Virus record (IMG/VR): IMGVR_UViG_3300027833_000087
Span: 1-44,071 of that record
From: a virus
Length of the DNA stretch: 44,071 nucleotides
Strand: one strand, 5' to 3'
The position numbers were made by a program, and so were the translations under genes. This document shows, one piece after another, positions 2,675-35,112 of this stretch (positions are counted from its first letter, which is position 1; each line of letters opens with the position of its first letter). A model generated the notes under the pieces. That model was not told where the DNA came from, ran no database searches, and saw only the letters and a program-made list of their open reading frames with translations.

Positions 2675-3103
2675 TTATGCGATTCCGTCGCGGGACATGT
2701 TATTGAATCCTTTTCTTTTTAAATCGTAATCATTTTCTCTTTCCTCTATGTTTATAGAACGATTTTCTTGTCTAGCAGCTCGTTTCAGTAAGCGAGTGGC
2801 TTTTTTATCTTTACCTTCGTCAACAGCTTTTCGACCTTTGATAGCGGTTTTAGCGGCTTTTAAAGCAACTTTTGTAGATCTTTTTAATTGTTTAGCAGGA
2901 GATGCATCCCTAGCTCCACCGCATGGCTTACCTAGACAAGATTTTGATGAGTCACGAAGACCGTACGTAACGCCTTTAGGTGTTTCCTTAGCGTTTGGGT
3001 TTCGCTTGTTTATTTTTGTACTTTGTGCTTTTCTTAATTGTTTAGCAGGGGAACAGGCACCGCCTCTAGCTTTAGCTACTCTAGTTGTTATTGGTAAGTT
3101 CAT
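2675..3103 (-). CDS. Basic late protein with two S-P-A-K-Q-L motifs
   Basis: 142 aa, strongly basic, unknown function. It starts MNLPITTRVAKARGGACSPA. S-P-A-K-Q-L-R-K is at 18-25 and S-P-A-K-Q-L-K-R-S at 68-76, each soon after a short Gly/Ala/Arg stretch, so the first half looks like a duplicated unit. The second half is a lysine/arginine-rich helix (K-A-A-K-T-A-I-K-G-R-K and on) ending R-D-G-I-A. It starts 2 nt after the giant gene ends. The motif pair is shared with the 133-, 314- and 230-aa proteins. A nucleic-acid-binding virion protein is plausible but not shown. Confidence 0.8.
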   Translation of the reverse strand: MNLPITTRVAKARGGACSPAKQLRKAQSTKINKRNPNAKETPKGVTYGLRDSSKSCLGKPCGGARDASPAKQLKRSTKVALKAAKTAIKGRKAVDEGKDKKATRLLKRAARQENRSINIEERENDYDLKRKGFNNMSRDGIA

Positions 3104-3105
3104 AG

Positions 3106-6100
3106 TTATTTATTTTTATTAGCTTCTTCTTTTTCTTTTCTTTTTTTAGCAATAGCAGCAATACGCTCATTCGCTTCGACCGTCTTAATTGAATCTTTTT
3201 TCTTTTTGGTTTTAGCCCTTGTATTTCTAGATTTTATTTTTCTTCGCTGTCTCTTTTCCCAGTCTTCTAGATCTCTATCATCTTGCGATAATTTAGATCT
3301 TCTGTCTTTCTCCTCCATTTCCTCTAGAAGTTTCTTCTGCTTTCTTTTTTCCTTGTTTTCTTCTTTTTTGCGCTCCTTATTTTCTGACTTTATCCTTACT
3401 TCTATTAAATCGTTTTCTTCATTTTTAGATCCAACGTTCCAAGTCTTCCAACCTAATGCTAAAGCTATTCTTTGCCATGCAGTGTTTCTAGAATCCAGGG
3501 CTTCTGTTATTGAATTAAGTTCATCAACTACCCTAGCTGTTGGTATATTAAGTGTTCCTTCAATAAGATTACCCGCTGAAGACCATCTAGGGCTTAAATT
3601 GAATTTACCATCTATGGTTACATCCCAACCTCTTTCGCCTATAACTTCTTTGTCAAATCTTTCTGTTTTAATAAAGTTAACTATCTTTCTTGCTTTTGAT
3701 CCCACTGCTGGCGATATATTAAGTAAAGCTATAAGTGTTTTAGAATCGTCTGCTAAAAATCCTCTGTCTTCCTGCTTTTTGTATTCTATTATAGCGTTCT
3801 TTAAAATAGATACAACCGCTCCAGGTAAACCAAATCCTCCTTTAAGCGTAGTGTCTACCATTGAATTTATAACCTGAAAAAGCTTTTTGTCAGTTTTTTC
3901 CTGCATAGTTAACTTACCCTCCTCTTCTTCATCGTCATTAAATCCTGGTATAAGTGCAAACATTGCGGCTTGTAGAGATGAGAAAATGGCATTTTGAATA
4001 GCCCCGTAATATATTATTTTACTAAAATTAGAAAAGTCACTTTGTGCTTGCGACATACCTGGTGTTCTTCTTCTGTTGTATATATCCTGAGCAGATTTTT
4101 TAATTGATCTGTTTAGCTGTATAGGTGTATTCATAAAATTTAAAACAACCCTACCAAGTGAACTAGATTGATCCGAGGATATTAAAGCAGGATCGCCTGA
4201 TTGCTGTGTCTCGCGAGAAACAACGCTAAAGTCGAAAAACGCTTGCTTTTCAGCTTCTTTCTGTGTATACTTAGGTTTTCCATCTGCACCCTTTTCTTTT
4301 AAATAAGTATTTAACCTATTTCTATAAAATGTAGCTCCGCCTGATGCAATAGCAAAGCTATCTACCATTTGCGTAGGTGTAAATCCTATTTTAAGCAAGT
4401 AATTCAATGCCGCAGATGCCTTGTCTGTAGCTCCTGTAACCGCGCTAGCAAGTTCAGCCGCGTTAACATCTGTCTTTAATCCTGACCTTCTCTGCTTTAA
4501 TTTGTCTGAGTTAAATATCATAGCGAAGTCAGACCAAAATTGCGCTTGATTAGCAAACGCTGCTGCCGCCTTCATTGGATTGTTGTCACTCCAGTTTACA
4601 AAGTTTACAATAGATAACGTTTGTAGTAATGCAGATCTTCTGTTAAAGAACATGATAGCACCGATCGAATTGTTTAACCAATTGTTCCATGCTTGCTCAT
4701 TTTTTTTCATGCCTGCCGCCCTGTTTGTACCGTTTTTCATTCGATACAATATATCTACAATGGCATCTCTATGATCTTTTCCGTATATAGCCTCTATCTT
4801 GTTTAGGTTAGCCTCACTAAAAATTAAATCAGCATTGTCAATAAACTCTTTAAGGTATTCTTTTCTACCCGCCTTCTCCGTAAAGTTATTAATATCAGAT
4901 AGTATGGTTTGTACGTCCCAATAATCAGAAGGCTTAGACCATTCTTTTCTTTGAGACATTTGCAGCGCTCCTTTAGCGTAGGCTAATAGTTCAGCATCAT
5001 TTTGAACATACCTAACAAGTTCTCTTTCTTGCTTTCTAGTAAGCCCAGGTATTTCGTACCCGGCTTTATTCCAAAGGTATACTCTTAATGCTTGATCATG
5101 AGTATGCACCATGCCTGGAATTTTTTTACCAAGCTTTTTCATTACAGGTTTAAACTTCTTGTTAAGTGCCGCAAACCCATTTTTAAGTGATTGCTTAACT
5201 TGGTCCATTTCATTTATACCTCTCCAGTACGGTGTAATTAAGGCATCTCGGAAAAACTTTTGGTCAGCGTCTCCCTGCCTGCCTTTACCTGCGAATGTAT
5301 ATTCCGTAAGACCTCTGAAATCCTCAAGTGAAGAAGGCATCCATATTTTGAATCTCCCTTTATTCTTACCTAGCTGGCGGCCTTCTACCTGTGTTAATCT
5401 TTTTCTAGATTTTATACCGGAAGCTCTTTCGAGCATGTCGTTAAAGGTTTTATTTGATGATCTATTGAATTTGATTCTAGATCTCTGTGTTGGTCCTTTA
5501 ACATCAAACGTGTTAAGTATGTCTCTTACTGCCTTAGGTTGATTTTTAAAATCTACTATAGACAGCTCTGTTTGTCCTTTAACGCCTTTGCCTTTAAGCG
5601 CCTTACCTACAGCTTTAACATTACCCATGTGATCGTCCGCAAAGTAAAAATCGTTGTAGCCATCGGCTATCTTGCTAACCATCCAATCGGCTTTGGCTTG
5701 GGGCGATCCGTTACCTAATCCTGTAATGTTCTCTATAGGTATGTTTAGCCCTTCAGACCTTAAAAATTCATGTATTGCTTTAGCGGAATTTGCCGGCCTT
5801 GCAGTCAAAACAAATATGTCTTTGTTTGTGTACTTGCCTTCCTTTTTTTGTGCTTCGCTAAACAATGGGCCCAGCTCCCCCTTCATTACTTTACTAAACT
5901 CGCTAAAATCAAATTCAGCACCTTGGTCTAATAATGTTTCTGACTGAGCGGCGAATTGAGCAGCGTTTAGTTTACCTTTTGTGCCGTCAGGCATTGCGTA
6001 TAGCACATTACTTTTCGTGCGAGCCAGTGTGTCGTCAAAGTCAAATACACTAATGCCTTTAGTTGGTTTCGAGGACTTAAGGCCTTCTGTTATTGCCTTG

Positions 6101-9100
6101 TTACCAACATTACCTTTGTTTATTTTTTCGGTATTTACAGCAGACTGAATAAACTTTTTTATTTCTTTTACGTCAGATAAAGAGGTAGTTGATTCTTTAA
6201 TTTCTCCGTTAATATTAGGAAAAACTCTCATAGAGGCCGTGTAAATACCTTGTTTGTTTTTAGATCCCTTTGTCATTCTAGCATACAAAGTTACATCAGC
6301 TTTTAATTCAGGAACACCCAAGCCATTTATGTCTTCTCCCATATAAAACAGCCCCTTGTTACCAAAATCAACATAATACACACCTTCATTATTATACATC
6401 TCTTGTATAACAGTTGCATCAGATGGTATCTGTAAATTTAATTTTGCTAAGTCACCTGTTTCAACCATTTTAGTAAACACAGCACCTTCAGCACGTAGCT
6501 TGCCGTTTTTAATTTCAGCAAAATATCCTTCTTTTTTTGCATAATCTAAAGCAGCTTTGTGGTATGCTTCTATTTTTTTCTTGTAATTTTCACTATTTAG
6601 TTTTTTTAATAATTCTTTCCCGCCTTCTGTTTTTAAAACTTCCGGTTTTGTAAGTGAAGCAACACCTTCAGTATATTTAACACTAAAGCTACTCATTTGA
6701 GCATTATCATTAAGCTTTAACTCTATTTGTATAATTTCTGTACCTATTTGTAATATTAAATCACCTCCTATGCCTTTTTTATTTCCTATAAGCTTAACTT
6801 TTACGTTTTTTTGGTTTGTGGCAGATAATACTTTTTTAATGAATTTTTCATAAGATAGCCCTTTGTTTTTAGCTTTGTAATCAGCAAATTTACCCGCTCT
6901 CCAAAGATTGTTGTCAAAGTAATTTCTCACTAAATTTCTAAGCTCTACGTTTTCGACGCTGTCTACGTAGTCATTGTAGGCGTCCATTCCTTTATCTACA
7001 AGTATATCTAAAGCTATATTGTGAATTTTTATAAATTGTGGGTTTTTAAAAGATTTTGAAAATTTAATATTGCCCCTATCTATATCGTTATCTATTTGTT
7101 GTATAAAATTTTCGGCAAGTATTGCACCTTGACGTTCTTGGTTGCTTTCAAACGCTTCGCTTATCTCGCTAGCTGGATCTGCTAAATCAGTAGAAAATAT
7201 TTCAAATGAAATTTCTTCAGCCATAGCTTTAGCTAATGCCTCTTTTCTACCCCTTATAGGGTTACCAGTTTCGTCTAGAAATTGAGCTAAATAGGTGTCA
7301 TTATCAATAATTTCGTCTACATTTTTGTAATTAACTATGCTTGGATGTCTCCTTACAAGCAAAGCCCCTGACGTTCTACCCGCGTTATCGGTACTTGTTT
7401 TTTCTCTGTCTATTTCTTTTCCAACCCAAGCCGGATAAGAAAGCCATTTGCCATCTACTTTCTTTTGTATAGCCTGGGGTATTCCACCTTGACCATCTTT
7501 ACCCATTAACCAGGTTGTGGTCATGTTTTGTAACGTTGCCTTTTTAGTCTTAAGTAAAAACTTTCTAAGCTTACCGTCTTTCTTGCCACCCATAGCTTTT
7601 TTAAGATCTATATCGGCTTGCTTACCCATTTCAAATTGTATCTCTGCCATAAGCGGAGTTACAGTACGGTTATTGGATATAGCGGCATCCATTCTGGATT
7701 TTACAGTACGAAGTACCGTTTTTAACTTAGCTTTTACAGCCTTTATTACTTCGCCGGATACTACACCAGCATCTGTTAAGCTTCTGTATTTAGGCTTTTC
7801 TTTTACTTCGTTTGAACTTTCTTCTGCGACTATACCCTTGGCATTGCTAACGTCACTAGCCTCGTTTAATTCTTTTCCTTTTCTTAACTCAGTGAGAGCT
7901 TCTTTAATTCTGTTGTTTAATCCAAATTCACTACCTATAATATATCCTCCGAAGTCATCGTTGCCTTGAGGGTTTTCTTTTGTTTTAGGTTTGAAATTAA
8001 GAATGTTTTTAATATACTGAACACCTATGGTGGCATCGTAAAATTCTTTAGAAGTTTTGCCGTAAATATCGTTTTCCACGATACCCATTTTAGCAATTTG
8101 TTTTTTAAACAATGGAAACAACATCCCGTCTTGAAAAGCTACTATAATCTTGCCTGCAACTTCAGGCCATTCAGCAGAAGTCATATCTTCAGGTATCATC
8201 TTGTTTATAGCATCACCTATTAAAACTTTTTCTTTTTTTAGCGCTTTAGCTTTTACATTATCGGTTTTAGCCTTAGGCTTAGGCTTAGGCTTAGGTTTTG
8301 CCTTTGCTTCTACCTTAGGTGGATTTTCGATGTTCTCGTATTCTTCTTCCAGCTTCTCAATTAGCCTATCGTGAGTGTCTTGCTGTATTTCATTTTGCGC
8401 AAGCTGTTCGCTTATAGCGTCGATTTCCCCATCGATAGCTTCCATTCTGTTTTCTTCAGCTTCCGTAAGCTTACGGCTAGCCTTAAAGCCTGGCTTAGAT
8501 GCAGCGCTCTCTCCTATTCCTGAGATTGTTCTTCCTATAGTTTCGTCCAAAGACATTTTAGAATTACTATCGTAATTTAAAACCGTGTTGTATATACTGT
8601 TAGGATTGTCTCTCCCAATTAAAGCGTACTCAATTGCGTTGGTTTTTTCTCTTGATCCAAATACATTGCTAGAAGATTTATTTATTAATTCCTGGACCCT
8701 GGCTCTATAAGCCATTGCAATACCAAGAGCTTTTCTAGGTAAATCTAATTTCGGGCTATTATAAGCACTTTGAACGTTTGCTTCAAAATTTGCATCGTAT
8801 AAAAAAGCGCTGCTAGCTCCTAATTTTTTGCCAATTTTAACACCTTCAGTAGCTGCTTTGGTTAATCCCTTGCCTAGCCCCTTGTTGTCTATTACGCTTT
8901 TATTAAAATCTTTTATAAAATTGAAAACGTCTTTACCTGAATTAAATGTAACTTTCATTCCGGCTCTCTGTAAACCTTGACGAATAAAATCACCTATTTT
9001 AGTAAAAGTATTTTCTTCAAAAGCAATAAAGCCTTGAGTTAAGCCCTCTGAAAATATAGTTAACAGCTCTTCTGCTTCTACACTAGAAGGATCCGATTTG

Positions 9101-12087
9101 TAAGCCTCTAGCCTACCTTGTATGTACGCATTGTTAAAGCTAATACCAGTTGGTATCATTTTGTCAATTTCAGATTTAAGAGCATTACTCATTTGCACTA
9201 TAGCGCCTGGGTTGTCTGTAATCGTTTTAAGTAACACCCCGTGAAGTAATTCGTGCTGAGCTGTGGTTACAGCCTTATTTGTACCCGCAACATCTTCATT
9301 AATTACTATGCTTTGTGTTCCATCGGGGTTCTGCATGATAAACCCATTCTGCTTTACAGCTTCCTCTACATTTATTAACTTTTCTTTATCAGCCTCCTTT
9401 TTGCCTTCGTTTCTTTTATTTATATCAGCATTTTGCTGCTCAACCGCTTCTCTAACTTTCGAAGTATTTCCTTTATCAAATTTAATACCTAAAGCTTCAG
9501 CGATTTTTTTAGACCCGGCTTCTGTTTTTTGCTGTATAACTGCGGACTGCTGTGTAACCTGAGAGTTTTCTATTTTAACGTTTATTGCTTCAATTTCCGC
9601 ATCGATGCCTTTTGTATAACGCGGATCGGCTTTTGATTTTTTATCTAGCAATTGATTTTTTTGTACTAATAAATCTATTTGCTCATCATTCATTACATCA
9701 GGAGCTACGTTAATAGCTTTTATAATATCAGCACCATATTCTATAGCAGAATTTATTTCGTTTAATTGTCTTTGGGCTGCTTCCTTGCTTTGCTGGGTTC
9801 TGGCTCTTTTTAACTTATTTTCTACAATTTTTTTAGTTTCTTGTAGAGTTGTTATTACATCAGCACCTTGGGTTCGGTATTGATTATATATTTTGTTTTT
9901 GTAGTTTTTAAATTGAGCAGGAGCCATAACTGCTGAGGTACTTCCTGCTAAAAGTATAGTACCAGCTATAGTTTCAAATTGAGTATCAAAATCAAAAAAC
10001 TTTGTCTCATTACTCAATCCTACTGTTATTTTAGCTATATCATTTAAAAGCAATTCAGCCTCTTCCTCCCCTATTTCCCCTATAAGGTTGTCTATAAACT
10101 GCTTTGTTACAACTTTTATTCCGTCTTTAGTCGTAACTTTCTTAAGGTTTTCTACAAAAGTTTTCTTTATAGTAGCCCCGGCCGTTGTGCTAAAAAATTT
10201 ACTGTCAGGCATTATACCTTGTACCAATGCAGTGGAAAAGGAAGTCATTGTTGAGTAGGCTAGCGATTGACTGTTACTTAAGCCCATCTGCTTACCTTCT
10301 AAATAATTATCATTAACGGTGGCTCTAAAAGCAAACCCACCCATTTTCACTTTGTTTATAGTTTGAGCACTAGCCCCCATACCGCGCATGATAGAGTATG
10401 CGGTTCTAAGTCCCTTAACGTCCCCTTTACGAGCAGCAAGAGCTACCCCTATTGTAAATGGCAGCATGTTTGCAATAGTTTTAGTTGTAGACCTGAAGGT
10501 GAGGTTGTCCATAGAAATACGGCCCCCTTTATCGCTTATTCCAAAATAATTAATATTGTTATAATTAGAAAACGTATCGCTAATCATATCAAGGCTAGTA
10601 TAGTTGTCTTCGAAATAATCAGAATCTATAGCGTCCCAAGCTACCCTATTAAGCCATATAGATGTACCAATTGTGGCGTCTCCTATCAACTTCTGGCCAC
10701 CTTGAATAAGAGTACCTACGGCATCTCCAAGATCACCTATATAACCCCCGTCAATATGGCGATCTCTCCACTTTTCAAAGTCATCAGTCATTTGAAAATT
10801 ATTAGCAAAGGATTGTTCACCAATATTGTAAGCTAATTCAGCAGAAGTGTCTTGTATTTTTATAGCAGCATTGTAAAGTATACCTTGAGCAGCGTTAGCT
10901 ACCTCAGGCGTTATATTAGCGGCCTCGTCTGCAGCAAATATTATATCTTCAGCTTTATTGTATTCAGATACATATTCATCATAGGATTTATTTAGCACTA
11001 TACTTTTAGCTCCTGTAATAATCATTTCTTTTTCAGCAAGAGGCACGTTGCCATCAAGTATCTTGCCTACTAGTTTTTTATTACCTGAAATACCGTTTAT
11101 TATTTCATCTTCTACTCTTTGATCAAATACTTTTTTTTCTTCTTTTGTTTGACCTAAGTCGCTTTCGCCAAAGCTACTGTATGTGTCTTTCGTTCTAGCT
11201 GTGGTTATTTCGTTTAATAACAAGTTTTGCTCTTGGTATTTTTCTTTGTCATAAGAAGTTTCAAACACATTATCCTGCATGTCCTCATAACGCCCAGCGT
11301 ATACTTCAAATTCTTCTTGGGTAATTTCGCCAGCATTGTATTTATCAATACCGCTATTCATGTATGCCTCGGCATCATTTATCTTTTTCTTATATTTGTT
11401 TCTTTGGCTAGAGTCAAAAGTTCTGCTTTCTTCTAGCTCGTTTTGCTTGTTATATTCAAGCTGATCAATTTGTTTTTGTATTTCTGCTCCCTCCGCGGAC
11501 ATAAGAGGGTAATTTTTTTGTTTGTTCTTTAAAAATTTAAGCTCATTGTCGTAAATTGATAAAGCAGCCTCGTTTCTGTCAAAAGCAGGGTCCTCGTATA
11601 AGCTTATAACAAAATCGCTAGGGCTATACTTTGGATCAGTTAGCTTAGGTTTTTCTTTATTAGCTTCGTATATTTCTTTTTCTTCTTGAAAAGTGTACTG
11701 AGATTCTGTTGGGCCGCCGGGCCTATTTATCCATGCAGATAACTCATCTGCAGAAAGATCAGGATTATCAGCAATATAAGCATTAGTTTCTTCCTCCCAC
11801 TCTTTTACTGTAATAGCATTGCCGTAGCCGTCTGTTTGTATTTCTACCTCATCCAGCCTGGACACCGAAAAACCATCTTCCGAGGCGGAATCCCCATTTG
11901 ATGCTTGACTTGTCTCCGGAGTTACAGACGCATCGGTCTCCGCATCTCCGTTCTGAAAATTTTCAGCAGGGGGTGTTTCGCTAATAAGCTCAGCGTTTGG
12001 GTATTTTTCTAAAAAGTAAGGTACTAATCCTTCAGAAATTTCTTTGGTTACAGGATTACCGTCTATATTTATTTTATACTTAGGCAT
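3106..12087 (-). CDS. Giant 2993-aa multidomain internal virion or polyvalent protein
   Basis: One uninterrupted frame. Residues about 30-80 are acidic and low-complexity. Hydrophobic helices occur near 700-718 and 2685-2710. H945-E-L-L-H949 after a strand-helix pattern (V-T-T-A-Q) is a zincin metallopeptidase motif; E1006, E1007 or E1014 could be the third ligand. A K-P repeat lies near 1258-1272. G-G-D1776 ... I-E1789-L-K1791 fits the D-x12-ExK core of PD-(D/E)XK nucleases. F-D2016-F-D2018-D-T-L, L-T2095-A-R and A-D2151-D2152-H give a HAD phosphatase domain, about 2010-2170. The last 100 residues are highly charged coiled coil. Such patchworks resemble phage polyvalent or ejected proteins that enter the cell with the DNA. 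It is encoded after two other internal virion candidates, as expected for ejection proteins. No RNA polymerase motif was recognised. The overall role is inferred; the HAD motifs are the most secure. Confidence 0.85.
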   Translation of the reverse strand: MPKYKINIDGNPVTKEISEGLVPYFLEKYPNAELISETPPAENFQNGDAETDASVTPETSQASNGDSASEDGFSVSRLDEVEIQTDGYGNAITVKEWEEETNAYIADNPDLSADELSAWINRPGGPTESQYTFQEEKEIYEANKEKPKLTDPKYSPSDFVISLYEDPAFDRNEAALSIYDNELKFLKNKQKNYPLMSAEGAEIQKQIDQLEYNKQNELEESRTFDSSQRNKYKKKINDAEAYMNSGIDKYNAGEITQEEFEVYAGRYEDMQDNVFETSYDKEKYQEQNLLLNEITTARTKDTYSSFGESDLGQTKEEKKVFDQRVEDEIINGISGNKKLVGKILDGNVPLAEKEMIITGAKSIVLNKSYDEYVSEYNKAEDIIFAADEAANITPEVANAAQGILYNAAIKIQDTSAELAYNIGEQSFANNFQMTDDFEKWRDRHIDGGYIGDLGDAVGTLIQGGQKLIGDATIGTSIWLNRVAWDAIDSDYFEDNYTSLDMISDTFSNYNNINYFGISDKGGRISMDNLTFRSTTKTIANMLPFTIGVALAARKGDVKGLRTAYSIMRGMGASAQTINKVKMGGFAFRATVNDNYLEGKQMGLSNSQSLAYSTMTSFSTALVQGIMPDSKFFSTTAGATIKKTFVENLKKVTTKDGIKVVTKQFIDNLIGEIGEEEAELLLNDIAKITVGLSNETKFFDFDTQFETIAGTILLAGSTSAVMAPAQFKNYKNKIYNQYRTQGADVITTLQETKKIVENKLKRARTQQSKEAAQRQLNEINSAIEYGADIIKAINVAPDVMNDEQIDLLVQKNQLLDKKSKADPRYTKGIDAEIEAINVKIENSQVTQQSAVIQQKTEAGSKKIAEALGIKFDKGNTSKVREAVEQQNADINKRNEGKKEADKEKLINVEEAVKQNGFIMQNPDGTQSIVINEDVAGTNKAVTTAQHELLHGVLLKTITDNPGAIVQMSNALKSEIDKMIPTGISFNNAYIQGRLEAYKSDPSSVEAEELLTIFSEGLTQGFIAFEENTFTKIGDFIRQGLQRAGMKVTFNSGKDVFNFIKDFNKSVIDNKGLGKGLTKAATEGVKIGKKLGASSAFLYDANFEANVQSAYNSPKLDLPRKALGIAMAYRARVQELINKSSSNVFGSREKTNAIEYALIGRDNPNSIYNTVLNYDSNSKMSLDETIGRTISGIGESAASKPGFKASRKLTEAEENRMEAIDGEIDAISEQLAQNEIQQDTHDRLIEKLEEEYENIENPPKVEAKAKPKPKPKPKAKTDNVKAKALKKEKVLIGDAINKMIPEDMTSAEWPEVAGKIIVAFQDGMLFPLFKKQIAKMGIVENDIYGKTSKEFYDATIGVQYIKNILNFKPKTKENPQGNDDFGGYIIGSEFGLNNRIKEALTELRKGKELNEASDVSNAKGIVAEESSNEVKEKPKYRSLTDAGVVSGEVIKAVKAKLKTVLRTVKSRMDAAISNNRTVTPLMAEIQFEMGKQADIDLKKAMGGKKDGKLRKFLLKTKKATLQNMTTTWLMGKDGQGGIPQAIQKKVDGKWLSYPAWVGKEIDREKTSTDNAGRTSGALLVRRHPSIVNYKNVDEIIDNDTYLAQFLDETGNPIRGRKEALAKAMAEEISFEIFSTDLADPASEISEAFESNQERQGAILAENFIQQIDNDIDRGNIKFSKSFKNPQFIKIHNIALDILVDKGMDAYNDYVDSVENVELRNLVRNYFDNNLWRAGKFADYKAKNKGLSYEKFIKKVLSATNQKNVKVKLIGNKKGIGGDLILQIGTEIIQIELKLNDNAQMSSFSVKYTEGVASLTKPEVLKTEGGKELLKKLNSENYKKKIEAYHKAALDYAKKEGYFAEIKNGKLRAEGAVFTKMVETGDLAKLNLQIPSDATVIQEMYNNEGVYYVDFGNKGLFYMGEDINGLGVPELKADVTLYARMTKGSKNKQGIYTASMRVFPNINGEIKESTTSLSDVKEIKKFIQSAVNTEKINKGNVGNKAITEGLKSSKPTKGISVFDFDDTLARTKSNVLYAMPDGTKGKLNAAQFAAQSETLLDQGAEFDFSEFSKVMKGELGPLFSEAQKKEGKYTNKDIFVLTARPANSAKAIHEFLRSEGLNIPIENITGLGNGSPQAKADWMVSKIADGYNDFYFADDHMGNVKAVGKALKGKGVKGQTELSIVDFKNQPKAVRDILNTFDVKGPTQRSRIKFNRSSNKTFNDMLERASGIKSRKRLTQVEGRQLGKNKGRFKIWMPSSLEDFRGLTEYTFAGKGRQGDADQKFFRDALITPYWRGINEMDQVKQSLKNGFAALNKKFKPVMKKLGKKIPGMVHTHDQALRVYLWNKAGYEIPGLTRKQERELVRYVQNDAELLAYAKGALQMSQRKEWSKPSDYWDVQTILSDINNFTEKAGRKEYLKEFIDNADLIFSEANLNKIEAIYGKDHRDAIVDILYRMKNGTNRAAGMKKNEQAWNNWLNNSIGAIMFFNRRSALLQTLSIVNFVNWSDNNPMKAAAAFANQAQFWSDFAMIFNSDKLKQRRSGLKTDVNAAELASAVTGATDKASAALNYLLKIGFTPTQMVDSFAIASGGATFYRNRLNTYLKEKGADGKPKYTQKEAEKQAFFDFSVVSRETQQSGDPALISSDQSSSLGRVVLNFMNTPIQLNRSIKKSAQDIYNRRRTPGMSQAQSDFSNFSKIIYYGAIQNAIFSSLQAAMFALIPGFNDDEEEEGKLTMQEKTDKKLFQVINSMVDTTLKGGFGLPGAVVSILKNAIIEYKKQEDRGFLADDSKTLIALLNISPAVGSKARKIVNFIKTERFDKEVIGERGWDVTIDGKFNLSPRWSSAGNLIEGTLNIPTARVVDELNSITEALDSRNTAWQRIALALGWKTWNVGSKNEENDLIEVRIKSENKERKKEENKEKRKQKKLLEEMEEKDRRSKLSQDDRDLEDWEKRQRRKIKSRNTRAKTKKKKDSIKTVEANERIAAIAKKRKEKEEANKNK

Positions 12088-12104: not shown

Positions 12105-13208
12105 TTAAATATTAGCTAATTCTTGAGCCGCAAAGGCCTTGTGTTGCGCTTCGGTAACCTCTGTTTCGTCTCCGTTTTTTCTTATAAGGTAAAACTTTCC
12201 ATTCCTGGAAGGGCCTGTACTTACTACTGGGTTTGTATTTTTTGGTGTTTTTTTAGCCTGCTTTTCGTTATAACCGGCTTGTCCAGCTTCCCTGCGGGAT
12301 GTAATTAGCCTGTCTATCAGCTTCTTTTTTATTTCCTGAACTACTTTGCCGTTGTCTGGGTTTTCTTCCCACAGGGTTCCTAAATCCTCTGTAGGAAATT
12401 CGTCTTCAAAATCGTAGATAAATGACCTCAAAGAGTCTTGACTAGCAAAAGCGCTTTCCAATTCTATCCTGTATAATTTTTCAGATTCAGGGCTAACCAA
12501 ATCACCTGCTTTTCGCACAGATTCGTTTTCAGTAAGTATTTTCCCCCCTAATTTATAATCTTTTAATAAAGGCGGGGATGTTTCATTATATGACTTTACT
12601 TCTCCATCGATATTAAATCCTATATTACCACCGTCCATTATAGTAAACGGGGCATCCATTTTTTCATCGCTAATTCCATCGCCGTCTGCATCCTTGTGGC
12701 CATACATTGATTGGTTTAGGTATATTAAAGTATTTTGCCTAGTATTCTTAGGGTCGTTACCGCTAGAGTATACACCTCCAACCATGCCTTCAACAAACTC
12801 TACCTTACTTTTTTTGTATGATTTGATTTGAGACGCTAAGTTTTTAAAGCTATTGTTGACACCGTTCATTATGTCTACTTGTGCCATATACTCAGATGAA
12901 GTCGTATCGGTCATTCCGGCCAATGCTTTTGCTGCCTCAGCATATTTATTTCTTTCTGAACCCAAAAAGGTACGCATCGAGCTAGTTTCTGCTGGGGAAA
13001 ACGAAGTAAAGTCTATGTCTGTTTTCATTTTGCCCATTAGAGAATTAACCCTAGCTTGGTACTTTTCATTTTCAGTAACAATATTAGGTTTTTTAAATCC
13101 TCTTGCTGTAAGGCCAGAGCTCGCAAGCCCTTTCATCATTTCTGCTCCTACATCTACAAATTTCTTTGCCGCCTTGCCTGCTCCTAGTATTAATTGATTA
13201 TTTGCCAT
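12105..13208 (-). CDS. Virion protein, probably internal or ejection-associated
   Basis: 367 aa. The N-terminus has an amphipathic stretch, G9-A-G-K-A-A-K-K-F-V-D-V-G21, that recurs almost unchanged in the 167-aa protein at 32849. The middle is helical (about 45-130). D173-A-D-G-D-G-I-S-D-E182 is an EF-hand or dockerin-like calcium-binding loop. It lies between the 212-aa and 2993-aa genes with gaps of 8 and 17 nt, the place where T7-like phages encode internal core proteins. No enzyme motif is seen. An internal virion role is inferred from position; a minor tail protein is the alternative. Confidence 0.7.
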   Translation of the reverse strand: MANNQLILGAGKAAKKFVDVGAEMMKGLASSGLTARGFKKPNIVTENEKYQARVNSLMGKMKTDIDFTSFSPAETSSMRTFLGSERNKYAEAAKALAGMTDTTSSEYMAQVDIMNGVNNSFKNLASQIKSYKKSKVEFVEGMVGGVYSSGNDPKNTRQNTLIYLNQSMYGHKDADGDGISDEKMDAPFTIMDGGNIGFNIDGEVKSYNETSPPLLKDYKLGGKILTENESVRKAGDLVSPESEKLYRIELESAFASQDSLRSFIYDFEDEFPTEDLGTLWEENPDNGKVVQEIKKKLIDRLITSRREAGQAGYNEKQAKKTPKNTNPVVSTGPSRNGKFYLIRKNGDETEVTEAQHKAFAAQELANI

Positions 13209-13216: not shown

Positions 13217-13855
13217 CTACTTTGTGCCGTTCATAAAATTCTGTGGACCTACGCCCATCATACCGCCTGACGCTGCTGAAGCTGCTCCTCCTACCACACT
13301 GCCGACGCCCCCTACTATAGACGCGGTTGCTGCGTCTCTTGCTTCATTTGCTGCTCCTAGCCTTTGCTGGGACATGCCAAACATTGTGTCCACCTTATCT
13401 TTTTCTGCCGCTCTAGAAGCGTATTCTCCTTGTATTTCTTGCTGCTGTAGTTGTCCAGCCATTTGCCTTTCAGCTCTTTGATTGCTAGCTTCTTGCCTAC
13501 CTATATCCGCAGACGCTGCTTGTGCCGCATTACTTTGTGCCCCCGCCATTGATTGGGCTAAAGCCGCAATACCAGATCCTCCAGCTGCAGAAGACAGTTT
13601 ATCCATAGTATTAGCAAATCCTCCCGCTTGCTGCTGAGCTTGAAATTCAGCTGCCTGAGTATTGACCGTAAGGTCTTCCATGGTATTCTCCATGTTTTTA
13701 TTTAGGTTAGAGGTATCAGCCCCTTCCATTCTTGCTTTATTTCTGTTAAATTCCGCTTGCGCTTCTGCCTGTTCTTTTTTTCTGCCTTTACTGCCTATTA
13801 TACCAGAAGCAATTCCAGTAAGTCCTGACACAACGCCTCCTATGGCTCCTATCAT
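13217..13855 (-). CDS. Small Ala/Gln-rich virion protein, T7 gp14-like by position
   Basis: 212 aa. Residues 1-22 are a glycine-rich hydrophobic helix (MIGAIGGVVSGLTGIASGII) and a second one lies near the C-terminus (A-S-I-V-G-G-V-G-S-V-V-G-G-A-A). Between them is a long Ala/Gln/Glu-rich helical region. Paired Gly-rich hydrophobic ends around a coiled region are seen in small ejection proteins that insert in the envelope. The genes on both sides are candidate virion proteins. There is no direct homology evidence; the name is by architecture and position only. Confidence 0.65.
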   Translation of the reverse strand: MIGAIGGVVSGLTGIASGIIGSKGRKKEQAEAQAEFNRNKARMEGADTSNLNKNMENTMEDLTVNTQAAEFQAQQQAGGFANTMDKLSSAAGGSGIAALAQSMAGAQSNAAQAASADIGRQEASNQRAERQMAGQLQQQEIQGEYASRAAEKDKVDTMFGMSQQRLGAANEARDAATASIVGGVGSVVGGAASAASGGMMGVGPQNFMNGTK

Positions 13856-15549: not shown

Positions 15550-18500
15550 TTAAGAGAAAGGTATTACTATACCCATGGTTGCTGTAGGGCTACTCAAATT
15601 TCCACACCAAGCTTTCACAACAAAAACCCCGCAATTACCTTGAAACCCTGAGGTAGGCGTATATGTAAAACTTCCTGTCGTTAAATCTAAAGTCAAGCCA
15701 GATGGATTTTCTAATAGATTATTTTCTAGCGTGAAATATATACCTGTAGAGCATGTGTTACTTTGCTGGATAGTATGGCTCACGGTTTGATTTTCTATTC
15801 CTGGGAACGTTTGCTTAACAAGCACCGGAGCAGTGGGTATAGTCGAACAATCCGGATCTATCTTGTTTGTAACCTGAAATTCTGTTTGAATTGGGCCAGA
15901 TATAACTGTAGCTCTTCCAATACCTTGAACGTTAAACTCGCTAGAATCCACATTAGTGTTGCAATTTGTTGTAAAAAAAGTATCAAGACCCTTTATATAA
16001 TTAAAGTACTTACCTTCTTTCTTTATGAACTCTTTGATTTTACCTTCTTGCAAGTCTGTAACAATAGATTCCGCAAACCAACCTTTGGTCCTAACCGAAG
16101 AGGTAGGCGTTAATCGCTGTGCCTGCACCTCGGCTAAAGAGTATTCCTGAAGGCTAGCCCCTACTCTGTAAATATATTCTCTTGATTTTGTACCGCTATA
16201 GTTAAGAGTTTTATACCCTTTTACTACGGCTGGGTTTTCGTTGAATATAGTGGTAAATGAACTATAATGATACGCAGGGGTTGTGCCTATACTGTCAGGC
16301 CCTACATTGTAAAAAGTATTTCGTTTTTCATTTGTTCCATGCTCCCATATTCTACCTCCTTTAAATGTGTAATAAGCATTATCCAAGTAAGCTCCCGCTT
16401 CTGGTATATAAACTTTTCTTGATGTAAAACCATTTATTGCTTCTTTATACGAAACAGTTGTAGTAGTTGTAGGTAAAGAGTTTACAAACTGATCACACAA
16501 TGGATGCTTATTAAGCCTGTCAAATTCTCCAGCCCCTAGTGTTTGTTGCCAGTAGGGGGTTAAAGAATTTAATGTTACATTGTAATTCCTTTTGTTAGGG
16601 TCCCACGTCCCTAGTATTTTATTGTTAATAGGTAGGTTATCAGAGAAAAACGAGTGCATGCCATAATCAGATAAATCTGTTATACCATCACCTGAAAGCC
16701 TAAGGACGGCGCCTCTAGTTGCATCGGTGTAATACATTCTAAATCCAAACTCAGCAAATGACTCGGGATTTTTAGCTATACCAAATTCACCTTGAAATGT
16801 TAATGTCTGCCCTAAAACTTCAGCGTTAGAAGTTAAGTTAGTGCTGCCGTCGGCATTAAACAAAGCATCTTTTTTAGCAAGTATTTTCATAGACTTATTT
16901 TCACATAAAGTGATTAAGTCAGTGTCTCTTGTATGAAACTTTTGTATACTTCCGTATTCTGGGTTTAAATCTTTAGTAATAGACTCTGCTTGTATAAACT
17001 GGTTTAAGTTATTTACACCAGATATAGAGTTAAATATTTGTGAAAATATTATACCGCTGGATCTAATTTCTTCGTTATAAGGTTCATCTAAAGTAGCAGA
17101 AGCCTTAACGCCATTTTCAATTGTAGGCTGGTTAAAATCGTCTCTAATGCGATCAGATTCAACCCCATTACCAAATGAATAACAGTTAGTAAACTCTAAT
17201 GTGTGCGTTTGGCCTGTATATTCTGAAGTTTTATAAACTTTAGGCACTTCCCAGTATATATCTAGCTCTGCTGCTTCTTTAGGCTCTGTTTCAAATATAG
17301 CTGGATTTGCGGTGGAAAAGCTATCGTCTTCTTCAGATAGCTCTATAAATTCAATACCCACATAAGAATTCGCCCAGTTATTTGCATCAGTAGGGGCCCA
17401 AGGCTGAAGCCCGTTTTGAGTTCCACCACCTTCTAAATTTATTTGGTCTGTTAAAGGATTCCATTGCATGCCTTGATTACCTTGCGCCTCTGCCACTCTA
17501 AAACTTAATGTCCAGTTGGTAATTTGATTTGCAGAGTTTTCTCCTTCATTACCGTCCCAGATGTCCCCGCAGTCACATTGATAAGTTAACCCTTGTTTTT
17601 CAACTGAATTATATACTCTATATACAGTGCCTTGGGGGTCGGCTACCTCATTACCTGCCTTTATAAATCTAAACAGGGTGCTGTCTTGTCTTAATTGCTG
17701 TAACAAATTAGGGTTACTGCCGGCAATACCGTTTTCTTCAGTACCTGCACCTACTTCATTTTCGCAAAACCCAAATCCTCCAGCCCAGGCTATATCTATT
17801 TTATTTTCGCCCCCTTCTGTATAAATACCACTTCCTTCAGGGATATACTGAGTACAACCCGTTCTTATTCTATTTATAAAAAGCCTTTCAGGAGAGTTTT
17901 GAGCGTCAGGAGGATTAGGAGAATTTCTCCAATTGTTTTTCCACCAGGATTCTGAATTAGTATTTCCTCCATTAAAGTTATATAAATATCCTAAAGCTTT
18001 TCTTAAGTAAGATGCGGTAGCCGTATTGCTGGCTTGAGCTATTTTTCTTCTAAGCAAATCGTCTTGAAAAACCTTTACAAAAAACCTACCTGTAAATTCA
18101 GGTTTGTTTTGAGATTCTACTCTAATAATTTCTAATTCTAAATTATCTACCCTGGTAGGAAAACCAAAAGGTTCAGTAGACGTAAAATTCATGTCAGGTC
18201 CAAATACCTCACTGGAGTTAATTAACACTTGTGAAGTGGTAGGCGCTGTAAATGATGCTATCTTATAATATTTACTAATCGACAGCCCTGACTTAACCCT
18301 CATTAATAGTCCCGATAAAGTTTTTGTTTCTTCTCCAAATTGATCATCAAACGCAGTTTTATCGACTATAACTTTGTTTGCCCCTTCTATTGGAAAACCC
18401 GCTACTGTAAATACGGTAGACATAGCCCCTAAAGAAATTTTTGTTTCTTTTAAATAAGTGGGCGCTTCGTTTTCTATTGCGATGACCTTATACCTTGCTT

Positions 18501-20451
18501 GTTCAACAACAGGTTCTGAATTATCGTGTTCTTTTTTTAATATTAAAAAAGTCTCTTCATCTACTTTATTTCTTTCAGCAGAAGGAAATGACAGCCATAA
18601 ATTACCGTCTTCCGCATCATAAAATCTATCCAATGCTAAATTATAGTATTCCCGCGAAGTTTCTTTTACGTAATACTTAAAATAAGGAAACTGCTTGTTT
18701 TGTTCGTAGTATGGTATTAAAGTTGGGTTATTGCCGTTGCCGGTTAGCGTAACTTGAAGCTTTGTAGATAAAGGTGCTTGCAGTTTTGGAACAATAATAG
18801 ATGCTGCTTTACTTGTAAATACAGGTGTTGTTCTGCCGTATTTATCCATATAGGCTACCCCTATTTGATAAGTTCTTATTGATTTTACAGAAGGAGCAAC
18901 TATTTTGCCTTCTATATTAACAGCCTCTCCTTGAGCCACAGTTGGTAGGCCAACTCTTTGGCTTACTGAAGATGCTTCAATATTGTTTTGAAAAAGCGAG
19001 CCGTTATTATTTAGCAGATTAAAATTTTGCGTATAATTCCCAAATAGCAATCTATTAGCAGTTATTTCCTGAGCTTTAGCTTTACGCGGCACGTTATCAA
19101 ATGGCCTTAATATTTGGTTTGTATTAACAACCGATGTTATTATTTCTGTTGTTATATCAAAAAGTCCTATAATATTATCACTACTATCCTCTACGCTCCA
19201 CTCTGGGTCTTCATTTGTAAAAGTGTCTACTACATATACGTTGGCATTGTTAGTTGCCTTATAAAGTATGTCCACAGCTACGACATCAGGGTACTCTACA
19301 ACATTGGGAGTAAAATGAGATATACTAAGTTGCCTAACATTGTTAGTCATACCTAAGTTGTACCCCTGGCTTGGAGAATAATTAAAATCACCCGGTATAA
19401 ACGCGGGATTTGAAAAAGCAGAAAACGCGGAAATTTCGTTATTTTTGTATTTATACCTATAACCAAATCTTGCAAATTTCATTTCAAAAAACGGGGGATC
19501 CTGTTCTAATGTTACATCATACAATATTGGATTCAAAGTAACACCTTCTGGGGCTGGTCCAACAGAAAGAATACTTACTACAGCCGTGCCTGCGCCTACC
19601 CCTATAACTTTGACTCTTATTACAGCATCTATATCTAATGGATTATTTTCAGCATTAGTAAGAAGTAATATGTTGTCAATAGCGTATACTGGAGGAATAT
19701 TTGAGGACCAAAACAACTGAACCTCAGTGCCTGCAGCAATAGGCTGTATATCCCCTACGACAAGTTCGTTATAAAATGAAAAAGTAGTTTGAGTATCTAC
19801 ATTTGCACCAGGCAATCCGTCAGGACCTATTACACTATTAGAATATGCAGCTACAACAGGCGGCTGCAGTGGATACTTTTTTACTACAGTTATATCATCT
19901 TCAATAAAGTTTCTACCGTATATTTGAGAATGTGTTACAAAATTAGGCGTAGATCCTACCCAATCTTCAACGAATATTTTCTTTGGCTCAGTTTGATTGT
20001 CTGTCCAAATTAATATACCCTCTATTACGTTTATACCTGTAATTAAATAATCCTCACTAAAATTTAAAACACCTTCCGTGTCAACTAATAAAGGCCTAGT
20101 TAATTTCGTGTTGATATTATAGTAAGCTATAACGCTTACAGAATCCGAAGCTATAAACCAATATATATTGTCTGAATTTTCATCCGCTATAGCTCCTACG
20201 CATACAGGATTAGTCAATGCCGTAATATATTTGACATTTCCCCACTGGTTATACGCGTTGGTTTTAGGATTGTACATTTTATTGCGCAATTCTAAGTTAC
20301 CTTTTATATTCTGGAAAGTACCAACTTGAGAGGTATCTGAAGATGCTAACTCTAAATTTAAGGCATCTCTATATTCTCCGTTAGGAACAAGTCTTTCGTC
20401 AAGATCCTTGTTCATTTTACCTGATGTAAACGTGTGTATTAACTCTGCCAT
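15550..20451 (-). CDS. Large tail hub or stabilization-type protein
   Basis: 1633 aa. The N-terminus (T-S-G-K-M-N-K-D-L-D-E-R-L-V-P-N-G-E-Y-R) is a motif I recall from phage proteins annotated as stabilization proteins, which compare to P22 gp10 and T7 gp12 tail-nozzle beta-propellers. Early segments such as D-N-I-Y-W-F-I-A and I-L-I-W-T-D-N could be propeller blades. The C-terminus (about 1530-1633) is Ig-like, with S-G-L-T-L-D-L-T-T-G and a Y-T-P-T-S-G-F-Q-G motif. It follows the connector genes, the place expected for the nozzle or hub. At more than 1600 aa it is much longer than P22 gp10 (about 470 aa), so extra adhesion domains seem fused on. Confidence 0.7.
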   Translation of the reverse strand: MAELIHTFTSGKMNKDLDERLVPNGEYRDALNLELASSDTSQVGTFQNIKGNLELRNKMYNPKTNAYNQWGNVKYITALTNPVCVGAIADENSDNIYWFIASDSVSVIAYYNINTKLTRPLLVDTEGVLNFSEDYLITGINVIEGILIWTDNQTEPKKIFVEDWVGSTPNFVTHSQIYGRNFIEDDITVVKKYPLQPPVVAAYSNSVIGPDGLPGANVDTQTTFSFYNELVVGDIQPIAAGTEVQLFWSSNIPPVYAIDNILLLTNAENNPLDIDAVIRVKVIGVGAGTAVVSILSVGPAPEGVTLNPILYDVTLEQDPPFFEMKFARFGYRYKYKNNEISAFSAFSNPAFIPGDFNYSPSQGYNLGMTNNVRQLSISHFTPNVVEYPDVVAVDILYKATNNANVYVVDTFTNEDPEWSVEDSSDNIIGLFDITTEIITSVVNTNQILRPFDNVPRKAKAQEITANRLLFGNYTQNFNLLNNNGSLFQNNIEASSVSQRVGLPTVAQGEAVNIEGKIVAPSVKSIRTYQIGVAYMDKYGRTTPVFTSKAASIIVPKLQAPLSTKLQVTLTGNGNNPTLIPYYEQNKQFPYFKYYVKETSREYYNLALDRFYDAEDGNLWLSFPSAERNKVDEETFLILKKEHDNSEPVVEQARYKVIAIENEAPTYLKETKISLGAMSTVFTVAGFPIEGANKVIVDKTAFDDQFGEETKTLSGLLMRVKSGLSISKYYKIASFTAPTTSQVLINSSEVFGPDMNFTSTEPFGFPTRVDNLELEIIRVESQNKPEFTGRFFVKVFQDDLLRRKIAQASNTATASYLRKALGYLYNFNGGNTNSESWWKNNWRNSPNPPDAQNSPERLFINRIRTGCTQYIPEGSGIYTEGGENKIDIAWAGGFGFCENEVGAGTEENGIAGSNPNLLQQLRQDSTLFRFIKAGNEVADPQGTVYRVYNSVEKQGLTYQCDCGDIWDGNEGENSANQITNWTLSFRVAEAQGNQGMQWNPLTDQINLEGGGTQNGLQPWAPTDANNWANSYVGIEFIELSEEDDSFSTANPAIFETEPKEAAELDIYWEVPKVYKTSEYTGQTHTLEFTNCYSFGNGVESDRIRDDFNQPTIENGVKASATLDEPYNEEIRSSGIIFSQIFNSISGVNNLNQFIQAESITKDLNPEYGSIQKFHTRDTDLITLCENKSMKILAKKDALFNADGSTNLTSNAEVLGQTLTFQGEFGIAKNPESFAEFGFRMYYTDATRGAVLRLSGDGITDLSDYGMHSFFSDNLPINNKILGTWDPNKRNYNVTLNSLTPYWQQTLGAGEFDRLNKHPLCDQFVNSLPTTTTTVSYKEAINGFTSRKVYIPEAGAYLDNAYYTFKGGRIWEHGTNEKRNTFYNVGPDSIGTTPAYHYSSFTTIFNENPAVVKGYKTLNYSGTKSREYIYRVGASLQEYSLAEVQAQRLTPTSSVRTKGWFAESIVTDLQEGKIKEFIKKEGKYFNYIKGLDTFFTTNCNTNVDSSEFNVQGIGRATVISGPIQTEFQVTNKIDPDCSTIPTAPVLVKQTFPGIENQTVSHTIQQSNTCSTGIYFTLENNLLENPSGLTLDLTTGSFTYTPTSGFQGNCGVFVVKAWCGNLSSPTATMGIVIPFS

Positions 20452-25823: not shown

Positions 25824-28256
25824 TTACCTAGGATCGAACGCTCCTAAGCCAAATCCTCCGCCCATTACGTCATTTCCTGCAGACTCAAAGTTTTTAGCTG
25901 GAGAATCATTTTTTCTTTGCTCGATCATTTCGCTTTGTTGAGTGCCTTGTATTCTTGTGCGTTGGTCTTTGCGATCCTCCATTTCTTTTTCTCTGGCTTG
26001 ATTTTTGTTTACCTCAAGACCCTTAAGCTGCATGTTATACTGGAATTCTAATCCCATTAACTCTTTCTTGGCGGCTACTTCCGTAGACATTTCTTGTTGC
26101 CTTAATTGGCCTTTGAGTTGTTCTAGCTGTGCCTTAGTTTGAAATAAAGCCTGATCTTTTTGTATTTCTGCCTGAGCAGCAACCTGTTGCGCTTGAGCAT
26201 TTGCCTGGGCTTGGGCTTGTATATTAGCCTGTTGCTCCGCCTGTAATCTAGCCTGTCGTTGCTTCTGCTTAACTTTTAGCAATTGGTTTGCTAGCTTTAT
26301 ATTTTTAACTTCGCGTATGTCAATAGCATCAGATAAATCTATAGATCCTTGTTGTAAAGCAACCTGGACATTGTTTTCAAGCATAGCGGATTCTTCTGCG
26401 TCGGGCATTAGTTCAAGAGATATTCCAAAGTCGTGCATGTATAAATCTGACATTTCCTCCAGGATACCTACATTAAATTTACCTATTTTGGTTATAAATG
26501 CTTCCTTAGCTGGATGATACTCTATTATATCCGATATTCTAAGTGACAAACATTCACAAAGCTCTCTTGTTAAATACAACCCAGAGTCAAGTATATGCCT
26601 TGTTGCAGTGTTTGAATTTGCTGCTGCTAATTTTTGTACACCTACTAATGCTCTAGAATCAGGTGTAGACCCGTCTCTTGCTTCGTTTAATCCAGTTACA
26701 TCTCTTATCATTTGCAGATAATAGTTGTACGTAGATATTAATGTTTGTAGCTTTTGACCACCGCTACCAGTAGGCACTTCTTGTATAGGTACTTTACCAG
26801 GGTTCATGTCCCCTTCTTGCGTAAATGATCTACCTATTATAGAACCCGTTTGAAAAAACATATTCAATGCTTCCTGCGGATTGTAATTTGTACCGTTGCC
26901 TAAATCAACCTCGTTGATTCCATCAGCGTCAAGATAAACACCATCAGGTATCATTCTTTGCAGTACTTGTTGTAATTTTAAGTGAGTTAGTTGCACCATG
27001 TCAGCAAATCCTGTGCACTTGCTTACTAATGATTCTATTCTACCCTTGTACATTCTAGGGGCAGTAATAGCGTAATTCATTTTAACCTTAGTTACATCAC
27101 TTTTGGGGCGCATCATGTTTTTTGCCATTTCCCACTTAAGCATAATATCAGTACCAACAATCATTACCCCTTCGTAAAGTACTTCAAGTGATCTTGACAT
27201 TTTGCCAAATTGTTCCTCAAGCATCTCTACTGGCGGATCAAACTGATCGTCTCTTACTATTATTTTAGTTGCTCCTGTGGAAGTTTCTTTAACTTTGTAT
27301 ACTTCATTCATGTAAGTTTTATAATTAAAGTATAAAACCTGTATGACGTTTGAATCTCTATTGTTGTTATATTCGTTACTTACGTTAGTATCAAAGACCC
27401 CGTAATTTTGTGTTCCTTGTTGCTGGATTCTTTCTAATTGATCCTGCGTTAAACTTGGGAATTGCTTTTTAAGCTCGTTTATAGGTACAAATTTTACTTC
27501 GCCGGCATAATATATGTCTTGAAAATAAGGATCCTCGGTATAAGAATATACTAAATAAGCTGGATCAACGTAATCAATAGTTACTCCTTCTGATTCTGAA
27601 AAGTTATTTTTAACAGCTCCAATACCTAAAGTAGCGAGATCTAAATAAGTTCTCCTTTTTGTTAAATCATATCTGTTTTCGTCAAGTAATGTATTAAGGG
27701 CAGTTTCCTCCGCTATTTCAATACCTTGCTTGTAAGTAAGTTGCATGTGTATGTCAAGCTCCTCTTGTGAATCGGGTAATGTTTCTGGGGGGTTTTCAAA
27801 AAGATTAATACCGAAGTTTTCTTGCGCAAAATTGTTAAGCTCTTCCGTTTGCTTATCTCTTATTACGGATTCCATATAAGCAGATCTTTTACTTATACCG
27901 TACGGATCTTGTGAATAAGTAGTAATATCAAAAGACCTATCAGCAATACCGTTTACAACTATATCAACAAACTTTGATAATATAGGCACAGGCTTCCAAT
28001 CTAAATTCAAGTAAGATAAATCTCCATTAATAGAAAGTTCGTCTTTATACTTCTGCACAGGTTGTTCACCTCTTGCGTATAACCTTAAGTTATGAAAAGT
28101 ATTTTGATTGCTTCTATAGCGAGTAGCCCCTGTATTACTGGAAAACCATTCGTTTTGAATCGCTCTACCAACCTGTAACCCGTAACTCTCAGAAACTTTT
28201 TCTTGATCACTTACTACCTGGCTAGGGAAAAAACTATTTATTGCATTTATCGCCAT
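25824..28256 (-). CDS. Portal protein
   Basis: 810 aa, right after TerL with a 1-nt gap, the expected place for the dodecameric DNA-entry ring. Residues 1-650 are a mixed alpha/beta body with R-D-V-T-G-L-N-E-A-R-D-G-S-T in the region of the portal stem helices. Residues about 655-770 are a Gln/Ala-rich coiled coil (A-Q-A-Q-A-N-A-Q-A-Q-Q-V-A). S-P-A-K-N-F is at 785-790 in the glycine-rich tail G-G-G-F-G-L-G-A-F. The tail S-P-A-K links the portal to the small basic S-P-x-K proteins encoded elsewhere in the late unit. The length is at the large end for podoviral portals. Confidence is from context and domain layout. Confidence 0.87.
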   Translation of the reverse strand: MAINAINSFFPSQVVSDQEKVSESYGLQVGRAIQNEWFSSNTGATRYRSNQNTFHNLRLYARGEQPVQKYKDELSINGDLSYLNLDWKPVPILSKFVDIVVNGIADRSFDITTYSQDPYGISKRSAYMESVIRDKQTEELNNFAQENFGINLFENPPETLPDSQEELDIHMQLTYKQGIEIAEETALNTLLDENRYDLTKRRTYLDLATLGIGAVKNNFSESEGVTIDYVDPAYLVYSYTEDPYFQDIYYAGEVKFVPINELKKQFPSLTQDQLERIQQQGTQNYGVFDTNVSNEYNNNRDSNVIQVLYFNYKTYMNEVYKVKETSTGATKIIVRDDQFDPPVEMLEEQFGKMSRSLEVLYEGVMIVGTDIMLKWEMAKNMMRPKSDVTKVKMNYAITAPRMYKGRIESLVSKCTGFADMVQLTHLKLQQVLQRMIPDGVYLDADGINEVDLGNGTNYNPQEALNMFFQTGSIIGRSFTQEGDMNPGKVPIQEVPTGSGGQKLQTLISTYNYYLQMIRDVTGLNEARDGSTPDSRALVGVQKLAAANSNTATRHILDSGLYLTRELCECLSLRISDIIEYHPAKEAFITKIGKFNVGILEEMSDLYMHDFGISLELMPDAEESAMLENNVQVALQQGSIDLSDAIDIREVKNIKLANQLLKVKQKQRQARLQAEQQANIQAQAQANAQAQQVAAQAEIQKDQALFQTKAQLEQLKGQLRQQEMSTEVAAKKELMGLEFQYNMQLKGLEVNKNQAREKEMEDRKDQRTRIQGTQQSEMIEQRKNDSPAKNFESAGNDVMGGGFGLGAFDPR

Positions 28257-31774: not shown

Positions 31775-31915
31775 TTACTTATATGGAAACATCTTATTTA
31801 ATGTTTCTTTTCTTTTATCACAACCGCAATCCCAAGGTAAAGCCTTAACAGCTTTTTTAATTCCGGTTACGGTTGTAATTTTTTCTATTGTATCTCCTAG
31901 TCCTTTTGCTTTCAC
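31775..31915 (-). CDS. Small Cys-containing protein with GTG start
   Basis: 46 aa found by hand translation. GTG start overlaps the TGA of the preceding gene as GTGA, a coupling arrangement. The product reads K-A-K-G-L-G-D-T-I-E-K-I-T-T-V-T-G-I-K-K, then L-P-W-D-C-G-C-D-K-R-K-E, ending K-M-F-P-Y-K. The C-G-C pair in a basic context recalls small Cys-containing phage proteins with K-G-L-G-D-T-I-E-K-I and D-C-G-C. No function is known to me. Coupling and the coherent sequence make it likely real; it lacks an ATG. Confidence 0.65.
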   Translation of the reverse strand: MKAKGLGDTIEKITTVTGIKKAVKALPWDCGCDKRKETLNKMFPYK

Positions 31916-33352: not shown

Positions 33353-33354
33353 AA

Positions 33355-34858: not shown

Positions 34859-35112
34859 TCAACTAAAACAATATCGTTTATAGTGATAACATGGTACATC
34901 TTATCATTCCATTCTATTCCGTGACCAGCGTGTTTGTCATATCTAACAACACTACCTTCTTTTATATAATCAACTTTATCACCAGCACTTATAACCTCGG
35001 CTTTTAAGTACCTAATGTCTGTGTTCTGTGTTTCAGTTAATTCTAGGCCAGCAACCGTTTTCGGCGCTTCCTTTATCTTATCTATTACGATATAATAATT
35101 AATTGCTTTCAA
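34855..35112 (-). CDS. groES: Co-chaperonin GroES
   Basis: 85 aa. K-A-I-N-Y-Y-I-V-I-D (2-11), a short mobile-loop region, then A-E-V-I-S-A-G-D (33-40), K-E-G-S-V-V-R-Y-D-K-H-A-G (51-63) and W-N-D-K-M-Y-H-V-I-T-I-N-D-I follow the GroES order: the 10-kDa cap that closes GroEL over a folding substrate. Slightly shorter than bacterial GroES (about 95 aa). It overlaps the groEL end by 14 nt, with groEL first, the reverse of the bacterial groES-groEL order. A phage GroES would adapt the chaperonin to capsid subunits, as T4 gp31 does. Confidence 0.85.
   Translation of the reverse strand: MKAINYYIVIDKIKEAPKTVAGLELTETQNTDIRYLKAEVISAGDKVDYIKEGSVVRYDKHAGHGIEWNDKMYHVITINDIVLVE

Follow-up and report, generated by a model that had tools for sequence, protein, structure and literature searches.

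The window analyzed here, a 44-kb contig (44,071 nucleotides) of an uncultured virus, a marine bacteriophage, carries genes in the order terminase, portal, capsid, tail, muzzle, small proteins, a 212-aa protein, a 367-aa protein and a giant protein. Families known from phage heads and tails were matched by the terminase, portal, capsid and tail proteins, and phages of Flavobacterium, Cellulophaga and Tenacibaculum gave matches to the terminase and the muzzle-type protein; the terminase is 63% identical to that of MW202828 and 46% identical to those of the Flavobacterium elemo phages. The muzzle/nozzle-type tail protein (1,633 aa; 15550..20451, minus strand) matched a virion structural PHROG (E = 6e-125) and is 29% identical to phi38:1 gp097; its match to crAss_MUZ_C (E = 1e-3) is below that profile's cut-off. 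The 212-aa small internal-virion-like protein (13217..13855, minus strand) showed weak similarity to its counterparts in Gundel (Gundel_72, E = 1e-6 by profile) and elemo, and to phi38:1 gp099 (E = 0.002 by blastp). The 367-aa neighbor (12105..13208, minus strand) occupies, by gene order, the place of phi40:1 gp100, a virion protein detected by MS/MS. A giant protein also closes this gene order in phi38:1 (1,691 aa), elemo (3,694 aa) and MW202828 (3,859 aa), and in Gundel a 2,482-aa giant follows proteins of 225 and 511 aa. The last three proteins of phi40:1 in the same order, gp099, gp100 and gp101, are annotated with "experimental MS/MS proteomics analysis"; phi40:1 gp101 is a counterpart of our giant by position only, not by sequence, and phi38:1 gp101 had no detectable similarity to it.

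Elsewhere in the window, a phage-encoded GroEL (PHROG E = 3e-136) and a probable GroES lie as a pair at 34855-36703, and a 117-aa protein at 33355-33708 has an HExxH of its own (NHEKVHLDQM) and is possibly a second zincin-like protein. Seven of the 33 predicted proteins (1322-1567, 1714-2115, 2675-3103, 25824-28256, 31912-32925, 32849-33385 and 33715-34407) contain a SPAK/SPLKQ-type motif, with 16 pattern hits, a few of them counted twice, for a pattern picked after it had been seen; shuffled proteins averaged 0.35 hits, with a maximum of 4. This motif is possibly a tag or processing signal.

One uninterrupted frame on the minus strand, 3106..12087, encodes the 2,993-aa giant protein (N-terminus MPKYKINIDG); the coordinates of its domains given below are all on this strand, and its homologs at the same place range from about 2,000 to 4,400 aa. 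An earlier note made from the DNA had described this frame, leaving out its strand, and had listed motifs of three enzyme families in it. HELLH at 945, D1776-x12-E1789-L-K1791, FDFDDT (D2016/D2018), T2095 and D2151/D2152 all lie at the residues given there; the list had omitted E1007, which is the third zinc ligand, as well as R2097 and K2132. Searching the whole protein against Pfam, PHROGs and 50,697 phage records produced no match, and a PDB sequence search with profiles of the HAD, the zincin and the C-terminal core yielded nothing real. Because single motifs could arise by chance in 3,000 residues, conservation among relatives decides their standing. Viral-contig scans with the giant, the terminase, the 212-aa neighbor, the core and the HAD gave 194 proteins, 167 of them non-redundant. 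AlphaFold models were assessed for active-site geometry through their secondary structure and through fold alignments rather than through distances. The model of residues 1975-2993 had a mean pLDDT of 80.9; that of residues 815-1990 had a pLDDT of 76.0 and a pTM of 0.39, so the arrangement of domains in the latter is not reliable.

The zincin-like domain (residues 837-1081; 8845..9579) carries H945, E946, H949 and E1007, which were invariant (120/120) in an alignment of relatives drawn from the 167 giants. In model numbering, strands at 55-59, 101-105 and 111-116 are followed by a helix at 128-142 with H131/H135 and a helix at 187-204 with E193; the three-stranded sheet, HExxH helix and later Glu helix of a zincin are thus present in the model, with conserved ligands. 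Zincin-type folds of the lethal-factor and Certhrax kind align with this region at Z 6.2-6.3; since a Z of about 6 is within the range of chance resemblance, we weighed this match only together with the invariant ligands. The domain also matched its counterpart region in the giant of elemo (E = 2e-8). Iyer et al. 2017 (PMC5512222) place a polyvalent-protein peptidase in the superfamily of lethal-factor-type zincins, and polyvalent-protein zincins are proposed there to process their own chain or to attack host proteins.

The PD-(D/E)XK nuclease-like domain (residues 1737-1985; 6133..6879) keeps D1776, E1789 and K1791 (D..ExK) in all 10 members with this module, the distant ones being only about 20-25% identical. 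Its model aligned to HhaI endonuclease (6uke) at Z 10.9 (rmsd 3.5 over 181 residues, 15% identity), and Holliday-junction (Hjc) resolvases aligned well below this, at Z of about 6. GCGC occurs 58 times in the window against 71 expected, which is no special depletion and says little about activity; HhaI-like specificity is accordingly not supported. Extra N-terminal "nuclease" copies returned by an iterated profile in relatives L121 and L124 lack D..ExK and were rejected as artifacts. The model of residues 815-1990 was matched by two viral BFVD proteins of 225-259 aa, A0A6J7X0G9 and Q58MG2; one belongs to Prochlorococcus phage P-SSM2, and, judged from size alone, both could be stand-alone forms of this nuclease.

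The combination of DxD, T/S, K and DD motifs in a Rossmannoid fold is the hallmark of the HAD superfamily, and this combination was found in the HAD phosphatase-like domain (residues 2003-2181; 5545..6081). Among relatives, D2016 and D2018 are kept in 132 of 133, T2095, R2097, K2132 and D2151 in 130 of 130, and D2152 in 129 of 130. In the model, the first strand ends at D2016/D2018 and another strand at T2095, a helix carries K2132, and D2151/D2152 come after a strand. The best solved structure is the T4 Pnkp 3'-phosphatase (5uj0; Z 13.2, rmsd 2.3 over 125 residues), the next different family aligning at Z 10.9, and the domain matched the PHROG "polynucleotide kinase" (E = 1.6e-4). At the level of fold and sequence, these two matches uphold the suggestion of the earlier note that the motif set is of the 3'-phosphatase type. 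Structure prediction, which it had proposed as a check, placed the HAD motif residues as in HAD enzymes and aligned the nuclease to HhaI, both clear fold matches, and gave a modest match for the zincin; conservation sustained all three assignments. Two or more biochemically unrelated enzyme domains, namely zincin, PD-(D/E)XK and HAD, therefore share one polypeptide, each with a complete catalytic set in the right fold according to sequence and models (zincin, whose fold is less certain; HhaI-like nuclease; T4-Pnkp-like HAD), and the corresponding activities are predicted.

The slot of the HAD is variable among relatives. In eight giants, a P-loop kinase replaces the HAD directly before the core; in L186, L214 and L157, the kinase is nested within the HAD, right behind the first HAD motif, and in L303 it is found elsewhere. 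The kinase profile matched, at marginal E-values, solved structures of Clostridium Pnkp kinase, zeta toxins and T4 polynucleotide kinase, and it also matched Pfam AAA_33/Zeta_toxin and the PHROG polynucleotide kinase (E = 9e-9). The window's giant gave no match to this kinase profile, indicating no P-loop 5'-kinase on that polypeptide, and no RNA ligase or kinase partner was found in the window. Other domains are inserted in the HAD after motif I in L131 (residues 2072-2242), L159 (also L125) and L153 (residues 1473-1582). An ADP-ribosyltransferase-like reading of the L125, L131 and L153 inserts, made by eye from YHGTS...GLGKHYT only, had no Pfam support and was discarded. The HAD-less giants L142, L179, L181, L202 and L219 have another module with EH.xP (YEHLVPA, IEHAVPS) just before the core.

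According to the earlier note, the 2,500 residues outside these motifs lacked any recognized domain. It is true that no library names them, but two of their stretches are conserved. The first, the helical C-terminal core (residues 2197-2910, about 700 aa; 3358..5499), is present in 153 of the 167 giants and was modeled mostly at a pLDDT of 80-95. Its fold resembles those of many predicted phage proteins in BFVD, polyvalent-type ones among them (E = 1e-13 to 1e-5), and some are annotated as polyvalent, LPD or ART-PolyVal; proteins labeled LPD/PolyVal matched at E = 1e-7 to 1e-4, and the label may concern another part of them. The Gundel_1 structural protein also has the core fold, and the core matched the Gundel giant in sequence (E = 4e-12). 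The second, which we call the C module (residues 1237-1679; 7051..8379), has no assigned function, was found in 67 of the 167 giants and has invariant P1537, K1542, G1546, G1570, T1572 and G1574. An N-terminal module (residues 1-75, MPKYKINIDG...; 11863..12087) was seen in 27 of the 167, and a charged tail (residues 2911-2993; 3109..3357) forms a long helix in the model. The part between the N-terminal module and the zincin (residues 76-836; 9580..11862) contains no known domain and is variable: its only homolog among the first 34 giants was L002, and it is unrelated (21-26% identity) in giants whose cores are 78-96% identical.

A scan with the core confirmed at least 592 relatives in viral contigs. 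Of 67 giants that were selected by the core and have their N-terminus intact, 65 contain HExxH, 50 the HAD, 33 the C module and 2 a match to the nuclease profile. One relative, L200, shares with the window's giant identities of 96% (core), 94% (HAD), 60% (C module), 31% (zincin) and 22% (nuclease), and its N part is unrelated. On the core tree, presence of the HAD required at least 11 changes, compared with about 24 for shuffled labels, which indicates that the HAD is inherited in clades yet has been exchanged repeatedly. As read from these alignments, architectures are shuffled between relatives, and the upstream enzyme domains are swapped like cassettes on a fixed C-terminal end. Besides Bacteroidota bins, core relatives L320, L323, L324, L327, L329 and L330 were binned as Maricaulis, Aliivibrio, Caldiserica and Woesearchaeota; those in odd bins are probably mis-binned phage contigs.

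We consider it likely that the product of this gene is a giant polyvalent-type ejection protein, with a helical core and an exchangeable set of upstream enzymes. Gene order, the MS/MS annotation in phi40:1 and the fold similarity of the core make it probable that the giant travels inside the virion and is delivered into the bacterium by ejection. The core would hold the protein in the capsid and participate in its ejection together with the neighbors of 212 and 367 aa, and the chain would enter the cell via the tail, either before the DNA or along with it. There the zincin may cut its own chain, or a host protein, freeing domains, and the nuclease and phosphatase would then find their substrates among the nucleic acids of the new host. 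The nuclease would most likely cut host or competing nucleic acid, and the HAD would most likely remove the 3'-phosphate or cyclic-phosphate ends that host nucleases or damage leave behind.

It is possible, though we doubt it, that the giant is ejected as an effector but that proteins or small phosphorylated molecules are what its HAD acts upon, an account that differs from the one we favor only in the HAD substrate. Foldseek alone put Ceg4 (prob 0.99) and Lem4 (0.91), which are Legionella effectors, first among PDB matches to the HAD, with weak E-values, and Lem4 aligned at Z 10.1. After structural alignment, however, T4 Pnkp is ahead by more than 2 Z units, the PHROG match is to polynucleotide kinase, and the slot is common to polynucleotide-kinase/zeta-type kinases. 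A more specific proposal, which we advance as a speculation with rather doubtful prospects, is that the packaged giants are virion-delivered end-healing toolkits in which a HAD 3'-phosphatase and a PNK-type kinase alternate or nest in the same slot.

It seems quite unlikely that the giant is mainly a structural ejection protein, similar to T7 gp16, with enzyme domains serving virion maturation or channel building rather than host targets. The gene does follow tail and small internal-protein genes, and the core is the only part retained in nearly all members, but active sites are invariant amid diverging surroundings and whole enzyme types are swapped between near-identical cores, so effectors fit better than fixed assembly parts. 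No Pfam hit to a T7 gp16-type lytic transglycosylase was found in the giant. Still less probable is a late-expressed, unpackaged cytoplasmic protein that neighbors virion genes by operon coincidence: although the MS/MS support rests on the positional counterpart in phi40:1, outside this clade, the protein at that place was detected in virions, and in the loci examined the giant is repeatedly preceded, directly upstream, by a gene of 360-640 aa. We give almost no credence to a relative of the N4 virion RNA polymerase with an overlooked polymerase domain, which the size and HExxH domain of that ejected protein (about 3,500 aa; PMC12633501) might suggest, as the whole protein had no polymerase family match, modeled residues 815-2993 yielded nuclease and HAD folds with no polymerase match, and the sole DxDxD is DNDID at 1666, with no convincing motifs.

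The giant ejection protein we propose has several precedents. Large ejected proteins are known from crAss001 cargo proteins and N4 vRNAP (PMC12633501, PMC10172136); these, like the internal ejection proteins of T7 and crAss001, resemble our case in that giant internal proteins lie beside smaller ejection proteins, but the enzymes differ. The giants of Cellulophaga phi38:1/phi40:1 (gp101), Flavobacterium elemo and Tenacibaculum Gundel_1 share gene order and large size with ours; no HAD module was detected in them, and there is little or no similarity beyond the Gundel core and the elemo zincin. The HAD has the fold and full motif set of T4 polynucleotide kinase 3'-phosphatase (5uj0, 2ia5), but with about 12% identity, no kinase on the window's chain and a setting within a giant virion-type protein. 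Likewise, the nuclease shares the PD-(D/E)XK fold of HhaI but is one domain of a larger chain. Polyvalent proteins, as Iyer et al. 2017 (PMC5512222) describe them, also place unrelated enzyme domains on one long chain with cassette variation, have the zincin as their commonest domain and are predicted to be injected with the DNA. In the present family, the HAD is the commonest cassette after the zincin, and a kinase or other domains are nested in it. A term search of the main text of that paper returned no haloacid/HAD phosphatase, no REase domain and no kinase-in-HAD nesting, so that, relative to it, the polyvalent, ejected frame is known and the HAD and REase-type cassettes and the kinase nested in the HAD are added here.

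This family is abundant in environmental viral contigs, with no close match in the annotated phage records searched. If the end-healing proposal is true, the phage would import, before phage gene expression, a repair of nucleic acids that reverses the cuts made by host defense in tRNA or DNA. The giant supplies enzyme domains that can each be tested on their own, for proteins that probably reach the inside of the bacterium at time zero, and the sharp borders of the cassettes make the family a natural catalog of early-acting phage effectors.
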